Part shown: positions 19,913 through 27,026 of the stretch, piece after piece
How positions within the stretch are numbered: the first letter of the stretch is position 1
Layout of the letters: each line of letters begins with the position of its first letter
Virus record (IMG/VR): IMGVR_UViG_3300032311_000362
Coordinates: 1-37,740 of that record
Source of the DNA: a virus
Strand: one strand, 5' to 3'
DNA: 37,740 nt
Position numbers and translations under genes: made by a program
The notes under the pieces: model-generated
Seen by the model: only the letters and a program-made list of their open reading frames with translations
What the model was told of the DNA's origin: nothing
The model's database searches: none

Positions 19913-20548
19913 ATGGCATATACACGTGGAACGTCTACCAACATTATCGTTGGAGCAGCAGCACTTTTCGTTGCAGACACAACCCTAACTCCAGGTACAC
20001 TGGAAACGCCAGTATCAAGCGCATCAATGAAGACTACATTGTCTAACGATGCATCTTATACAAACGTAGGATACACCATGAATGGTCTTGAATTGCAGTT
20101 CCAACCTGACTTCGGTGAAGTACAGGTTGACCAAGTTCTTGACGTTGCTAAGCTTTATAAGCAGGGTATGCAGGTTAACCTTGCAACAGCATTCGCAGAA
20201 GCAACACTAGAGAATCTTCTATTGGCTCTTGCATATGCAGACTCAAAGCTAACAGGAACAAAGAGCTCATCAGCAGGACGAGCACTTAACCTTTCAGCTG
20301 GAGACATTGGAGAATGTCCAGTAGAGCGTGGTCTCGTTGCAGTAGGTCCAGGCACAGGTGACTGTGAAGATTCTGCATACGTAGAACGAGTTTACTCAGC
20401 ATATCGTGCACTCTCAATTGAGAATGTAACAGTATCTGCAAAGCGTGACGAGGCTTCAATGTTTGAAGTTTCATTCCGTCTTCTTCCAGAAGACGTATCT
20501 GGTTCATATGGTAAGATCGTAGATCGTACTTGGACACCAGCTTCATAA
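19913..20548 (+). CDS. Major tail (tube) protein
   Basis: The 211-residue protein would assemble as stacked rings to form the flexible tail tube. It is placed between tail terminator and chaperones, uses CGN codons almost only for Arg like the capsid gene, has a good ribosome site (AGAGGTGA), and is followed by a terminator, all as expected for an abundant protein. It begins MAYTRGTSTNIIVGAAALFV; the middle (LELQFQPDFGEVQVDQVLDV) and end (SMFEVSFRLLPEDVSGSYG) have the alternating strands of tube proteins. There is no added Ig domain. The call is firm from position and moderate from sequence. Confidence 0.85.
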   Translation: MAYTRGTSTNIIVGAAALFVADTTLTPGTLETPVSSASMKTTLSNDASYTNVGYTMNGLELQFQPDFGEVQVDQVLDVAKLYKQGMQVNLATAFAEATLENLLLALAYADSKLTGTKSSSAGRALNLSAGDIGECPVERGLVAVGPGTGDCEDSAYVERVYSAYRALSIENVTVSAKRDEASMFEVSFRLLPEDVSGSYGKIVDRTWTPAS

Positions 20549-20571
20549 TAAAAACTTAATAATACGACTTG

Positions 20572-20607
20572 GCCCATCTCATAAAGAGGTGGGCTTTGTT
20601 GTTTTTG
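20572..20607 (+). terminator. Rho-independent terminator after the major tail gene
   Basis: A 9-bp stem, GCCCATCTC (20572-20580) with GAGGTGGGC (20586-20594) including one T-G pair, has a 5-base loop and is followed by TTTGTTGTTTTTG. Confidence 0.88.
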
Positions 20608-20616
20608 TGGTAAACT
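20608..20616 (+). promoter_or_regulatory. Possible extended -10 promoter for the first chaperone
   Basis: TGG-TAAACT is a weaker form of the phage's extended -10 and follows the tail terminator directly. The ATG at 20626 is ten bases after it, so the leader would be about three bases with no ribosome site. Confidence 0.45.
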
Positions 20617-20625
20617 TAATATACA

Positions 20626-21342
20626 ATGGCAACTAAAATATATAAAACAAAGCGCATCTATTTATTTGACGGTACAGAGATAGAGATAATGCCTCTTAAG
20701 ATAAAGTATCTAAGAGAGTTTATGGACGTTTTTGATACCATTAAAGATACAAAAAATGATGATGAGGCAATGATGGTTTTGCTAGAGTGCACAAGGGTAG
20801 CAATGAAGCAGTACTTTCCAGAGATATCAAAGAATATAGAAGACCTTGAGAATAATATAGATTTACCAACAGTGCATGAAATCTTAGACTTAGCAGGAAA
20901 CATTAAGATTGGTGAAGACTCAGAAGAAGATGTAAAGACACAAGCCCAAAAAGGCGACCCAGGTCCATCATGGGAAGACTTTGATTTAGCAAAGTTAGAG
21001 TCTGAAGTATTTTTGCTGGGTATATGGAAAGACTATAACGAGCTTGAAGAGTCATTATCCTTATCAGAAATAATGGCAATTATATCTAGCAAAAGAGATT
21101 TAGATTATCAAGAGAAGAAGTTCTTTGCAGCAATTCAAGGAGTTGACCTAGAAGATTCTGGTAATGAAGACCGTGGTCAAAAAGAATGGGAAAATCTTAA
21201 AGCAAGAGTATTTAGTGGCGGAGCAACCAGTGATAGTAATGATGTGTTGTCATTACAAGGACAAAATGCTAAGAAGGCAGGGTTTGGTATTGGAATGGGT
21301 CTTGATTATGAAGACACTAGAGACCCAAATCTTATGATATAA
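20626..21342 (+). CDS. Tail assembly chaperone, long form (G-T-like)
   Basis: Tail chaperones bind the tape measure and guide tube assembly. The 238-residue product has a G-like part (1-100: DGTEIEIMPLKIKYLREFM, LLECTRVAMKQY, NIDLPTVHEI) followed in the same frame by a T-like part (about 115-238: WEDFDLAKLESEVFLLGIW, KRDLDYQEKKFFAAIQGVDL, ARVFSGGATSD, GFGIGMGLDYED). In lambda-like phages the T part is reached only by a -1 frameshift; here it is continuous, with no slippery site needed. The next gene is a paralogue of the first half alone. There is no ribosome site; the ATG lies just after a possible promoter, suggesting leaderless translation. Confidence 0.85.
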   Translation: MATKIYKTKRIYLFDGTEIEIMPLKIKYLREFMDVFDTIKDTKNDDEAMMVLLECTRVAMKQYFPEISKNIEDLENNIDLPTVHEILDLAGNIKIGEDSEEDVKTQAQKGDPGPSWEDFDLAKLESEVFLLGIWKDYNELEESLSLSEIMAIISSKRDLDYQEKKFFAAIQGVDLEDSGNEDRGQKEWENLKARVFSGGATSDSNDVLSLQGQNAKKAGFGIGMGLDYEDTRDPNLMI

Positions 21343-21356
21343 AATAAGCGTTATTA

Positions 21357-21365
21357 TGCTATAAT
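21357..21365 (+). promoter_or_regulatory. Extended -10 promoter before the second chaperone
   Basis: TGC-TATAAT is at 21357-21365 with no -35. The transcript should begin near 21372 and includes GGGAGGG before the ATG at 21393. Confidence 0.6.
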
Positions 21366-21392
21366 TGATCTAAACCTATGGGAGGGATCAAC

Positions 21393-21719
21393 ATGGCAAC
21401 AACTGTGCACGAAGCGCATAAGATCAGTCTAATTGATGGTACAGAAATAACCTTAAGACCACTTAAGATTTCACTTTTACGAAAGTTTATGAAAAAGTTT
21501 GAGGGTATTGCAGCAGTAGTAGATGATAACGATAAGTCAATCAACCTACTAATGGAGTGTGTACTAATCGCAATGGAACAATATAAGCCAGAGCTAGCAG
21601 GAGACCTTGCTGCACTGGAAGAGATTATTGACTTACCTACCGTCTACGAGATTGTTGAAACAGCATCAGGCATCAAGCTATCTGACGCAGCAGCAATTTT
21701 CAGCGGTAACGAAGAATAA
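21393..21719 (+). CDS. Tail assembly chaperone, short form (G-like)
   Basis: The product is 108 residues and is clearly a paralogue of the first 100 residues of the preceding gene. Shared elements are DGTEI, PLKI, LR-x-FM, the LL-x-EC...AM-x-QY-x-PE block, and IDLPTV-x-EI. It lacks the T-like half, and no T-like continuation exists in another frame before the tape measure. ATG 21393 is chosen over ATG 21378 because GGGAGGG sits at proper distance before it and would otherwise be inside the coding region. It has its own promoter, so the amount of short form can be set apart from the long form. It lies directly before the tape measure gene, the usual place for chaperones. Confidence 0.85.
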   Translation: MATTVHEAHKISLIDGTEITLRPLKISLLRKFMKKFEGIAAVVDDNDKSINLLMECVLIAMEQYKPELAGDLAALEEIIDLPTVYEIVETASGIKLSDAAAIFSGNEE

Positions 21720-21746: not shown

Positions 21747-24700
21747 ATGGCTGATGTCCAGTCCAATATTAAGGTAAGTATTGATACTACTGATGCACTA
21801 GCCAGTATCAAAAACTTACAGAGACAGATATCAGCTTTTCACACCTCAATGGCCAAGAGTGGTGCTGCAGCAAATGCAGTTACCGCTGGAATGCAACAGA
21901 ATTTACTTAATTCCATAAATGCTACGGGCAAGTTCTCTGCCCAGATGAAAACAATAAGAACAACCACTGAATCCTTTACTAATTCTTTAGAAAAGAATAA
22001 GTTCACACTTGGTGAATATTTTAGATACGCTGGTGGAGCATCCAAGACATTTGGTAAACTTTTTAAAACTGAGTTTGATACTATAAATAAGGTTGCAAGA
22101 GAAAATGTAAAAGACCTTCAGACACAATATATCAAGATGGGCCGTGATGCAAACGGTGCTATGAAGGCAATTGCTGTAAGACCTCTTTCTCTTGATATGA
22201 ACGATCTTGCAACAAAGACAATGATTGCCTCTGAAAGGCAAGCACTTCTTAATCAACTATTGAAACAAGGATCTACAAACCTTCTAAACTTTGGTAAAAA
22301 TACACAGTGGGCTGGTCGCCAGCTTATGGTTGGTTTTACAGTTCCATTAATGGCTGTAGGTTCTGCAGCTGCTAAAACATTTATGGATATGGAAACACAG
22401 GCTATTCGTTTTAGAAAAGTCTATGGAGATTTGTTTACACCAGCATCAGAAACTAAAGCAGCTTTAGATGGAATAACAGAACTTGGAAAGCAATTTACAA
22501 GATATGGTGTTGCAGTTTCTTCTACAGTTGGTCTCGCAGCCGAAGCCGCAGCAGCAGGCTTTAAAGGACTTGATCTTCAAAGACAAACAGCAGCAGCAAC
22601 TAAGCTTTCTATTTTAGGACAGGTTGAAAGCCAAAAAGCACTTGAAACTACTATTGCTTTGCAAAATGCTTTTGCAATGTCTTCTGAAGACTTAGCAACA
22701 AATATTGATTTTCTCAACGCAGTAGAAAACCAGACAGTATTATCACTTGATGATATGTCAACTGCAATTCCAAAAGCAGCACCAGTTATTCAACAGCTTG
22801 GTGGAGATGTTAAAGATTTAGCATTCTTTATGACTGCAATGAAAGAAGGTGGAATCAACGCATCAGAAGGTGCTAACGCACTTAAGTCTGGTCTTGCTTC
22901 TATGATTAATCCAACTGGAAAAGCATCAGCAATGCTTGAAGGTTTTGGAATTAATATAAAGAAAATTGTTGTAGACAATAAGGGCAACCTTAAGAAAACT
23001 GTTATTGATTTTGCAACAGCACTTAACCAGCTTGATCCACTAAATAGAGCACAAGCAATTGAACAGATGTTTGGAAAGTTCCAGTTTGCTCGTTTATCTA
23101 CATTATTTGCAAACGTAACAAAAGAAGGAACACAGGCATCACGTGTACTTGACTTAGCTGGATCATCAATACAAGACCTAGCAGCCCTATCTGAAAAAGA
23201 ATTAGGTATGACTTCAGAGTCTGCAATGAATAAATTTAAAGCATCTGTTGAAAATCTTAAGCTATCACTTGTGCCAGTTGGAGAGCAATTCTTAAAAGCT
23301 GTAACTCCAATTGCTGAATTTGTTACAAAGATTCTAGACAAGTTTAATAATCTTGGAGATGGAACTAAAAAGATCATTGTAACACTGACTGCAGTTATTG
23401 CAGGCCTTGGTCCAGTACTGCTTATGACATTTGGTTTGCTTGCTAATGGTGTTGCAAATATTATTAAGGGTTTTGTAGCAGTTAAATCTATATTTAATAA
23501 GACTGGGCAGTCCTCTGCAACACTTGGTACTGAAGTTAAATATATGACACTTGAACAAAGAAATGCAGCAGCAGTTGCAGCATCGCTTGATCAAGTTCAT
23601 AGAAATCTTGCACAAACTTTTACATCAGAGGCCTCTGCAGTTGATGCACTTACAAGAGCATATCAAAGATCAATAGCTGCACAATCAAACTTTATACCAA
23701 CAGGTGTTCCAATAGGTCGTGGACCAATAAAGAAGAGAGCAAAAGGAAAGCCTTCAGTTGTTGGCGGTACAGGAAACAAAGATACAGAACTTTCATTACT
23801 AACTCCTGGAGAAACAGTAATTCCAGCAGACATGTCAAAAAAGTATGGCTTCCTTATCAACGGAATGATTGCTGACAATATTCCTGGATACATTAAGGGC
23901 AAAAAGAGAAAAGGTATTTCAGAAAGAACAGCAGATGTTCCAGTATTTGGAGATCTGTCAATATTTATTCAAGATAGGGCTGAAAATCAATCACAAGGTG
24001 CATCAGCTCCAGGACTAGAACAAGTTCTTGCTCCACTAGTTGCAAGAGTTGGAGAAGCAAGAGGACTTGGTTTTAGCCAACAAACACAAGCACAATATTA
24101 TCCAGGAATTATTGAAGAATATAAACCAGTTGTACAAACATTTGTTGATAATCTAAAATCTGAAATGGACAGAACAGCAACTACAATTACTAGTGAGTCT
24201 GAAAGATTAGCAAGAGCTTGGCAAGTAGCAGGAAAATCTGTTGAAGCAGAATTACAAAAAATTCCAAATGAAGTAGAGCGTGGCACAGTAAGACAAGCGC
24301 TAGGAGTTGAAGCTGACTCATATGGTTCTGTTGCTGGCGATTTTAGATCAAAGCATGGCTGGGGTGGAAGAACTGCAAGACATGCATCAGGCAAAGGACC
24401 AGCTTCTTATGTAGATCCAAATTATAGAAAAGGTACATCTGCAGCATATGAGATGATGACTGGTAAAAAGGTTGATAGTAGCACACAAGACTATGGACAC
24501 GTATTTGATATTAGAACACGTAAAAAGCTTGGTCTTCCAACAACGATACCTCTTGAAGAATTAAGAACAGATCCTTCAACAAATCCATCTACTATTTCTA
24601 CAATAAACAATTCTATTCTTAGAGAAGAAGAAAAAGCTGCACGTAGTCGTACAGTTGGTCAAGCAGCAACAACTACAGAAGAGGCTGTTAAGGCAGTAAG

Positions 24701-27026
24701 AAAAACAGCTAAAACTGCATCACCATCAAAGCGTACTATTCCAGTTGGTGAAGACATTGCTCGTGGACTTTCTGAGGGAATGAAAAAAGAAACACCAAGA
24801 GTTGTATCAGAAGCAAATAAAATGACAGATGCTGCTGTCAAAGGAACTAGAACACGTAGATCAGCATCACGTCCACAAGGTGCACCATCTACACCTGTAG
24901 TTCCAGGTAAAAGAGTTCGGAGATCATCATCTCGTTCAGGAGGAACAGTAGGTCCAAATGGCCAGATACTTCCTGGTTTTATAAGTACTCCAGACAATGC
25001 AAATATGTTGCCAATAGTTTCTAAGCCAGGACCGCAATCAAGAGTTTCTCGTATGAGAGGTATGGCAACTAACGTTGGATCAAAGTTTGCTGGAAAAACT
25101 GCAGGACTAGGTATGGCAGGATCAGCAGCAATGATGGCTGGATCATTCCTACCTGGAAAAGCTGGACAACTAGCACAGCAAGCAATGCCAGTAGCATTTG
25201 GATTACAAGCATTGCAAATGGCACTTAAGCTTCCTATCCCTCACCTAAAGGCAGTTGCTCTAGGTGCTGCAGGAATCTATGGAATGTTTAAATTAATTAA
25301 TTCACTAAAGGAAAAAGAAAGACTTGCTATTGAAGGTCTTGGAGATGCAGCAACAGTATCTGAAAAGAAGTTAAAGACTCTTGGAGATTTCTTTGGCATA
25401 GTTCCTACAAAGATTGACTTCCTCTCAAGAAACGATGGAACATCTACTGGTGCAACTCCCCAGCAACAAGCACAAATTGATACTTTACAAAAAGATAAGA
25501 ATTTCCAAAAAGACTTTAAAAATGACATTACATCTTTAAAAAAGGGCACTGATGCACAAGCAAAACTGGTGTTTGATTCTATTGCTATTCAGTTGCGTGG
25601 CTCAGGATTTGCTAAAGAACAAATAGATCTTATAGTTAAAGCATTACAAGAAGAGTCTGGAAAGACTAAAATTAAGTTTGACTTTGCTAACATTGATCTT
25701 TCAACAGACAAAGGAATTTTAAACTTTGATAAAAACTTTGGCGCTGTTCTAAAAGAAATAGATAGTGGAATTACTCAGACATATACAAGAATGAAGTCTT
25801 TTGATCAAAAATCTGGAAAATGGCTTGGAGGTGTAGTAACCAATATATCTGAAGAAGCTAAAATTAACCTTAAGTTAGCTGGTGATGCAGCAACTGGATT
25901 TATAAATGGATTAAGAGCACAGCTAGAAAATGGTACTATATCTGCAGACCAGTTTACACAAGGTTTTGCAAGAATGCACTCAGCAATTGCTTCATTGCCA
26001 AAACCAGAAGCAACAATAATACTAGATGCAGTATTTGAATCACTTCCTAAAAAGCTAAGAGAGTCAGCATCAGGAATTACAGATGTTGCAAACAGAATGA
26101 TTATTTTAGAAGGAAAAGCACTTGGACTAACTAGTTCACTAGCAGGTGTTATTGCTGCAATGACATTACTAAACTCACCAACTGTTTTTGGTCCAGATAA
26201 TGCAATAGCAAGATATAATGCACAAGGTGTTATAGATAAATTTACTAATCAAATCACAGCAGCTAAAAAAGCTTTTGAGAAAATTGCAAAATCAGGAAAT
26301 CCAGTAACGAACCCTTATAAAGATCCAGATAATTCCTCTGGCGGTAAAGGATTAACAGATGAAGAAAAATACCTTAAGATATTAGAAAAACAAATTAATG
26401 CTTTAGAAGCAAAAAGAGATGCTCAGAAAAAAATTAATGACGAGATTCAAAGAGAAATAGATTTAGTAAACAAACTAGAGGACCTTTCTTCTCAAGCAGT
26501 TAATGCAAAAATCTCAGGCAACTATATACAGGCAGCAATGCTTGGGCAGCAGTCAATTCAAGCACAGGCAGAATTTGATAGACAAACATATTTAAATACA
26601 CAGCAAGAACCAATTGATCAACTTATGGCACGTAAGCAAGAGATTCAGGATGGTTCTAAGCTAACTAAAGCAGAAAGAGCTAAACTGCCTAAGAAGGCCA
26701 ATGGAGGCCTCATAAAGGGTCCTGGAACAGGACGCTCTGACTCAATTAAAGCAACTATGGGATATGCTGGTGGAGGATCAATCCGTGTTTCAAATGGAGA
26801 GTTTGTTGTAAAGGCTGCATCTGTTAGAGACTATGGTTTAAATGCAATGAATGCAGTTAATAATGGAACTGCAAGTATCAGCACAAACTCTGGCGGTACC
26901 GTGTATAATATAAATATGCCTATTACATCTAATTCATCAGATCCAAAGGTTGTAGGCGATTATGTTATTAGAAAACTTAAGGTTGAGATTGACAAAAATA
27001 ATAAGAGTAATAGGATTAATATATAA
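21747..27026 (+). CDS. Tape measure protein
   Basis: This is the longest gene in the window. The 1759-residue protein fixes tail length and leaves the tail at infection. Residues 1-180 are helical and coiled-coil-like; about 185-540 match the TP901-type tail tape measure core (GRQLMVGFTVPLMAVGSAAA, EAAAAGFKGLDLQRQT, MTAMKEGGINASEGANALKS). Hydrophobic segments lie at about 543-570 and 1121-1165. LLTPGETVIPADMSKKYG occurs near 681 and KGPGTGRSDSIKA near 1656, both common in tape measures. A region at 720-960 is unlike known tape measure parts, and 1031-1066 is rich in Arg and Ser. A coiled coil is at 1538-1583. It follows the chaperones, and its stop overlaps the next ATG. Confidence 0.92.
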   Translation: MADVQSNIKVSIDTTDALASIKNLQRQISAFHTSMAKSGAAANAVTAGMQQNLLNSINATGKFSAQMKTIRTTTESFTNSLEKNKFTLGEYFRYAGGASKTFGKLFKTEFDTINKVARENVKDLQTQYIKMGRDANGAMKAIAVRPLSLDMNDLATKTMIASERQALLNQLLKQGSTNLLNFGKNTQWAGRQLMVGFTVPLMAVGSAAAKTFMDMETQAIRFRKVYGDLFTPASETKAALDGITELGKQFTRYGVAVSSTVGLAAEAAAAGFKGLDLQRQTAAATKLSILGQVESQKALETTIALQNAFAMSSEDLATNIDFLNAVENQTVLSLDDMSTAIPKAAPVIQQLGGDVKDLAFFMTAMKEGGINASEGANALKSGLASMINPTGKASAMLEGFGINIKKIVVDNKGNLKKTVIDFATALNQLDPLNRAQAIEQMFGKFQFARLSTLFANVTKEGTQASRVLDLAGSSIQDLAALSEKELGMTSESAMNKFKASVENLKLSLVPVGEQFLKAVTPIAEFVTKILDKFNNLGDGTKKIIVTLTAVIAGLGPVLLMTFGLLANGVANIIKGFVAVKSIFNKTGQSSATLGTEVKYMTLEQRNAAAVAASLDQVHRNLAQTFTSEASAVDALTRAYQRSIAAQSNFIPTGVPIGRGPIKKRAKGKPSVVGGTGNKDTELSLLTPGETVIPADMSKKYGFLINGMIADNIPGYIKGKKRKGISERTADVPVFGDLSIFIQDRAENQSQGASAPGLEQVLAPLVARVGEARGLGFSQQTQAQYYPGIIEEYKPVVQTFVDNLKSEMDRTATTITSESERLARAWQVAGKSVEAELQKIPNEVERGTVRQALGVEADSYGSVAGDFRSKHGWGGRTARHASGKGPASYVDPNYRKGTSAAYEMMTGKKVDSSTQDYGHVFDIRTRKKLGLPTTIPLEELRTDPSTNPSTISTINNSILREEEKAARSRTVGQAATTTEEAVKAVRKTAKTASPSKRTIPVGEDIARGLSEGMKKETPRVVSEANKMTDAAVKGTRTRRSASRPQGAPSTPVVPGKRVRRSSSRSGGTVGPNGQILPGFISTPDNANMLPIVSKPGPQSRVSRMRGMATNVGSKFAGKTAGLGMAGSAAMMAGSFLPGKAGQLAQQAMPVAFGLQALQMALKLPIPHLKAVALGAAGIYGMFKLINSLKEKERLAIEGLGDAATVSEKKLKTLGDFFGIVPTKIDFLSRNDGTSTGATPQQQAQIDTLQKDKNFQKDFKNDITSLKKGTDAQAKLVFDSIAIQLRGSGFAKEQIDLIVKALQEESGKTKIKFDFANIDLSTDKGILNFDKNFGAVLKEIDSGITQTYTRMKSFDQKSGKWLGGVVTNISEEAKINLKLAGDAATGFINGLRAQLENGTISADQFTQGFARMHSAIASLPKPEATIILDAVFESLPKKLRESASGITDVANRMIILEGKALGLTSSLAGVIAAMTLLNSPTVFGPDNAIARYNAQGVIDKFTNQITAAKKAFEKIAKSGNPVTNPYKDPDNSSGGKGLTDEEKYLKILEKQINALEAKRDAQKKINDEIQREIDLVNKLEDLSSQAVNAKISGNYIQAAMLGQQSIQAQAEFDRQTYLNTQQEPIDQLMARKQEIQDGSKLTKAERAKLPKKANGGLIKGPGTGRSDSIKATMGYAGGGSIRVSNGEFVVKAASVRDYGLNAMNAVNNGTASISTNSGGTVYNINMPITSNSSDPKVVGDYVIRKLKVEIDKNNKSNRINI

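Follow-up and report, generated by a model that had tools for sequence, protein, structure and literature searches.

A duplicated tail assembly chaperone gene as the probable replacement for the G/GT frameshift in a phage lineage

The analyzed stretch of DNA, hereafter the window, is the 37,740-base IMG/VR virus record IMGVR_UViG_3300032311_000362, in which two putative tail assembly chaperone genes lie in tandem on the + strand. The first, GT (20626..21342), starts with an ATG without a Shine-Dalgarno (SD) sequence and encodes a continuous fused protein of 238 aa with a G domain (approximately residues 1–96), a linker and a T domain (approximately residues 113–230). It matched phrog_10504 (residues 1–108, E = 4e-24) and phrog_10474 (residues 133–193, E = 3e-15) within a single open reading frame, so the original prediction had correctly described and placed a continuous G-T-like protein. 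The second gene, G2 (21393..21719, + strand), encodes a stand-alone G chaperone of 108 aa that matched phrog_10504 only and is orthologous to the G of the frameshift-type relatives described below. A program had called its start at the ATG at 21378, which we rejected in favor of the ATG at 21393 with the SD sequence GGGAGGG at 21380–21386. The G domain of GT (G1) and G2 were 44% identical over 100 aa (E = 5e-28), in line with the proposed paralogy of gene 2 to the N-terminus of gene 1, and a profile-profile comparison of the two families, named beforehand as a possible refutation, found them to be related (99.96%, E = 5e-39).

G2 is followed after 27 nt by the tape measure protein gene (21747..27026, + strand; phrog_10030, E = 3e-102), whose product is the predicted client of the GT and G2 chaperones. 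Upstream of GT lies a major tail protein candidate (19913..20548, + strand), the predicted partner of the T domain, which was assigned by its position and by matches to phrog_2175 (‘protein with Ig domain’, E = 4e-32) and phrog_885 (major tail protein, E = 3e-4), and the gene at the homologous position in three related loci (L003–L005) is annotated as a major tail protein. GT and G2 therefore show what is expected of tail chaperones, namely long and short forms that share an N-terminal domain and are encoded between the major tail and tape measure genes, and this position was backed by synteny with annotated Streptomyces phages, the hosts of the nearest annotated kin of the window phage being Streptomyces. 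Both proteins have homologues in these phages with a tail assembly chaperone annotation; across 127 Streptomyces phage records, the counterparts of G and T are two ORFs, in many cases annotated in this way. Searches of GT and G2 against Pfam and PDB sequences returned nothing useful and no match to a structurally proven chaperone. Homology and position thus point to G and T functions for the two genes.

Relatives of GT, G2 and the T domain were collected from viral contigs, and their loci were classified by G and T profiles on stop-to-stop frames. Most of these loci were contig fragments baited with the GT, G2 and T proteins themselves, so that a relative whose T or G differs greatly would have escaped detection. 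A fused GT in a single frame with a separate G after it was found in 278 loci, 176 of them distinct (the window and 175 others), and a single G with T in another frame and without a second G was found in 42 loci (34 distinct). An intact mixed state, either a fused GT without G2 or a frameshift arrangement with a second G, did not occur among the classified loci. The exceptions with GT alone (L029, L200 and L214) or G alone (L134 and L150) were all located at contig ends, and the only fused locus that lacked an intact G2 without being cut by a contig end was L302. In this locus (L302:3414-3748), the reading frame of G2 changes at about residue 30, through either a sequencing error or a real break. 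The T domain stayed joined to the G domain in all of the fused loci. Searches of the whole records of ten frameshift-type phages, including three genomes of 133–134 kb annotated as complete, found one G in each. An assembly artefact as the source of the GT and G2 arrangement was ruled out by the 176 distinct loci. In a prophage and host search of genome contigs, we detected one distant frameshift-type locus with CCCAAAT (L326, from a metagenome bin).

Two kinds of insertion were also observed in the collected loci. A 626-nt insert between GT and G2 (L023:4715-5343, and also in L057 and L115) contained a reading frame that matched Pfam Endonuclease_7 (E = 1e-20 over the aligned part) and is probably a homing endonuclease. 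In two frameshift-type loci (L183 and L238), the G profile hit two separate stretches within one ORF, suggesting an insertion inside G.

The two groups also differed at the junction between the G and T domains. Among the 34 distinct frameshift-type loci, 33 had a clear G start and could be analyzed, and in all 33 T was in the −1 frame and an in-frame heptamer was present in the G/T overlap: GGGAAAC in 11, all newly collected environmental contigs, CCCAAAT in 8 and CCCGGAA in 14, the last being the Streptomyces phage type. The search of relatives suggested with the original prediction thus yielded loci that combine a single G with a −1 frame T and a slippery heptamer. In the 176 distinct fused loci T shared the frame of G1, contrary to what defines a programmed −1 frameshift, and neither GGGAAAC nor CCCAAAT occurred at the G/T junction; heptamers in the junction and linker of the fused lineages were of various kinds and did not exceed the number in codon shuffles (8 of 43 lineages versus 11.5 expected). 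In the window, gene 2 and the boundary between G and T were both free of in-frame XXXYYYZ heptamers. The claim that no slippery heptamer exists in the right frame held for these two places but not for the remainder of gene 1, where AAAAAAT occurs within the G domain (20751) and CCCAAAT towards the C-terminus (21324); both positions are unsuited to producing G and GT. A frameshift after gene 2, which would have told against the proposal, was rejected as well; both alternative frames (−1 and +1) soon run into stops, and neither a slippery site nor a frameshifted T homologue was found downstream.

We then compared the start signals of the two genes across the 43 lineages obtained by clustering at 85%. 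Promoters and SD sequences were called as consensus matches, and as a background, random positions gave a good extended −10 box within 75 nt in 3% of cases and one placed 5–12 nt upstream in 1%. An intrinsic terminator with a stem of 10 pairs and a T-rich tail (20571..20603, + strand; z = −5.7) separates the major tail gene from GT, and a terminator-like hairpin was found before GT in 40 of the 43 lineages (background 4%) and before G2 in none of the 43. The extended −10 box of GT, TGGTAAACT (20608..20616, + strand), lies 9 nt before the ATG, and its hexamer ended 5–9 nt upstream of the ATG in 38 of the 43 lineages. Because this box is so close to the start codon, the GT transcript is predicted to be leaderless; an SD sequence preceded GT in only 7% of the 43 lineages, and the start codon was ATG in 169 of 169 distinct loci. 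For G2, the extended −10 box TGCTATAAT (21357..21365, + strand) lies 27 nt before the ATG and is followed by the SD consensus match GGGAGGG (21380..21386, + strand), which gives a predicted leader of about 20 nt in the window. All of the 43 lineages had a perfect TGNTATAAT 23–42 nt from the G2 start and a strong SD sequence, and the mean anti-SD duplex energy was −10.6 kcal/mol for G2 versus −3.0 kcal/mol for GT. In these features, frameshift-type G resembled G2, with a leader, an SD sequence in 33 of 33 loci and the box 22–36 nt from the start in 32 of 33. Both the separate promoters and the different start types (leaderless for GT as predicted, SD-led for G2) of the original prediction were therefore conserved, as far as consensus matches can tell, throughout the 43 lineages.

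Several further features of these signals were noted. Where the gap between GT and G2 was 26–28 nt (L010, L013, L058 and others), the −10 box of G2 overlapped the stop codon of GT, with TAA lying within TATAAT, and several frameshift phages had the same TGNTATAAT at the stop of T, ahead of the tape measure gene. In the G2 leader, CCTA directly preceded GGAGG (21376–21386 in the window) in 24 of 43 lineages versus 1 of 16 for frameshift G; this conserved CCTA could pair with the SD sequence or act as a binding site. The G2 leader of the window folded with a z of −3.4. A perfect TGNTATAAT occurred nine times on the + strand of the window (434, 3610, 8714, 14313, 16832, 19842, 21357, 31673 and 32370) and once on the − strand, a total above that in every one of 100 shuffles (mean 3.15), and several of these sites sit just ahead of genes, which suggests many short transcription units.

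Expression levels were approached by the codon adaptation index (CAI), with the pooled major tail genes as reference. The CAI of G2 (0.603) was higher than that of GT (0.460) in 43 of 43 lineages (paired p = 2e-13, which overstates independence given that the lineages are related), and it fell to 0.434 for the G domain within GT. In frameshift phages, the G part likewise exceeded the T part (0.562 versus 0.437) in 10 of 10. The mean dS of G2 was 0.378, less than half of the 0.85–0.93 for GT. The codon bias indirectly suggests that G2 is much more expressed than GT, and together with the low dS it is as would be expected if G2 had become the abundant form and GT the scarce one.

In the trees of the 43 lineages, the G1 domains formed one clade (99/97), and G2 grouped with the freshwater frameshift-type G, where ‘freshwater’ is a reading of the collection of environmental contigs as a whole; this was the outcome of the G-domain phylogeny that had been proposed as a check. 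Without the long-branched L192, G2 was monophyletic (SH-aLRT 90) and adjacent to the freshwater frameshift-type G, and the topology test did not reject G2 monophyly. The fused T domains were not one clade in the T tree, yet a single clade was not rejected (p = 0.377); with this result and the G1 clade, which argues for one origin, we rejected independent origins of the fusion. Grouping G1 and G2 together against all frameshift G was not rejected, its likelihood being higher by 10.7, and several branchings for the order of the duplication and the freshwater frameshift split would be compatible with the trees. The subtree lengths were 16.1 for G1 and 7.2 for G2, so that G1 has changed about twice as much since the duplication, and dN/dS was low and similar for the G1 (0.106) and G2 (0.111) domains. 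We took the frameshift as the ancestral state because the Streptomyces outgroup and tailed phages generally have it. Since the G of frameshift phages branches with gene 2, gene 2 would be the old G, and GT would hold the faster-evolving copy. One duplication, with G2 as the old G and the GT gene as the changed copy, appears to be the simplest account.

In most long-tailed phages, a short and a long chaperone are made from one gene through ribosomal slippage, and few translational devices of tailed phages are as conserved as the G/GT frameshift. The lambda chaperones gpG and gpGT and their programmed −1 frameshift were reportedly described by Xu, Hendrix and Duda in 2004. Like lambda, the window encodes a short G and a long G-T between the major tail and tape measure genes, and an excess of G is expected; unlike lambda, it has no frameshift at the junction and carries two genes with separate start signals, the fused GT preceding the free G. 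The ratio of the two forms is essential in both lambda (PMC5009743) and TP901-1 (PMC4493119). Lambda requires gpG and gpGT at about 30:1, with G binding the tape measure protein and T the tail protein (PMC5009743), and TP901-1 with G and T forced into permanent fusion yields non-infectious particles (PMC4493119). A fused GT would therefore need a separate G, for which G2, present in every intact fused locus, is the only candidate.

We consider it very probable that GT and G2 are the long and short tail assembly chaperones and that the duplication replaced the frameshift, with separate expression setting the excess of G. The ancestor would have made both G and GT from one gene by −1 slippage. 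After duplication of the G gene, one copy would have been joined in frame to T to give the present GT, the other would have stayed free directly ahead of the tape measure gene as G2, and the slippery site would have been lost. The strict either/or pattern between phages with fused GT and G2 and their relatives with slippery sites bears out the proposal that duplicated genes replace the G/GT frameshift. The excess of G over GT would now come from separate expression through promoter, terminator and initiation: GT lies behind a terminator and would be read from a leaderless mRNA, and G2, with its perfect extended −10 box, leader and strong SD sequence, would also be carried on transcripts that start at the GT promoter. 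Transcription together with initiation probably determines the G:GT ratio. That a broadly distributed phage lineage replaced frameshifting by duplication once and thereby moved control of this ratio from elongation to initiation, with a leaderless GT against an SD-led G, is a more specific reading for which we see the chances as evenly balanced.

Somewhat short of even, in our estimate, is the probability that duplication replaced the frameshift but the ratio arises mainly from transcription, by a weaker GT promoter and read-through of GT into G2, rather than from leaderless versus SD-led initiation. The −10 box of GT (TARAAT or TAAACT) is indeed weaker than the perfect TATAAT of G2, and with a terminator before GT and none before G2, G2 would be transcribable from both promoters and GT from its own or by read-through only. 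Moreover, leaderless initiation in mycobacteria is about as strong as leadered initiation (PMC4633059), so the absence of an SD sequence alone need not lower GT. However, the missing SD sequence and the −10 box at 5–9 nt are equally conserved in GT, which suggests selection on the type of initiation as well. We regard it as very unlikely that gene 1 still yields both forms, by slippage to a premature stop as in dnaX or by cleavage, and that G2 is a specialised extra chaperone instead of a replacement of gpG. The in-frame A AAA AAT at 20751 would favor this, but slippage at that site, which is inside the G domain, would leave G incomplete, the junction has no conserved heptamer and heptamer counts no higher than chance, and G2, which accompanies every intact fused GT and is missing from all frameshift loci, is allied with frameshift G in branching, codon bias and start signals. 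Of about the same low probability is a divergence of GT and G2 into two client-specific chaperones, for example for the tape measure and for other tail proteins, with no required ratio, which the twofold faster evolution of the G1 domain would suit but which is opposed by the strict complementarity with the frameshift state, the persistent linkage of T to G and the low, similar dN/dS of both G domains.

Replacement of the frameshift by two genes, the reading that we favor, has a reported precedent. Vladimirov, Gautam and Davidson in 2022 reportedly described separate genes, 26 and 51, for the short and long chaperones of the T4 group. Both T4 and the window would thus use separate paralogous genes, but the T4 genes are on opposite strands and very diverged (gp26 and gp51 had a weak similarity of 20% over 161 aa, E = 2e-6), whereas the window copies are in tandem and 44% identical, the phages are not T4-like, and close relatives of the window phage still use the frameshift. 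No meaningful similarity was found between T4 gp26 or gp51 and the window chaperones, leaving common descent unsupported. A mechanism other than frameshifting for the tail chaperones of T4-like phages is reported in the title of that study (Vladimirov, Gautam, Davidson 2022, Virology 566:9-15). Among the Stanwilliamsviridae, the Streptomyces phages Coruscant, Evy and JimJam have an annotated chaperone pair with homologous G and T domains in the same gene order, but they differ from the window in having one G, T in the −1 frame, an in-frame CCCGGAA (CCCAAAT in relatives) and no second G genome-wide. Microbacterium cluster EA phages, in which G and T are two ORFs expressed separately with no evident frameshift, resemble the window in apparently expressing tail chaperones without frameshifting but differ in their separate G and T ORFs, a duplicated G not being reported there (PMC7302621). 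No published report of a fused GT with G2 in these phages was found in the openly accessible literature that was searched. In sum, the principle has been reported for T4-like phages, and the fused GT with G2 adds a new variant, independent of theirs, in a family that includes both states.

Annotation pipelines that expect a single joined frameshift gene will misread such genomes. The presence of both frameshift and two-gene members in one family suggests that selection acts on the ratio and not on slippage itself, and related phages with either solution form natural pairs in which control of the ratio could be tested. If a single duplication did shift control to initiation, the occurrence of both solutions among close relatives, with codon bias to match, would amount to a natural swap experiment.
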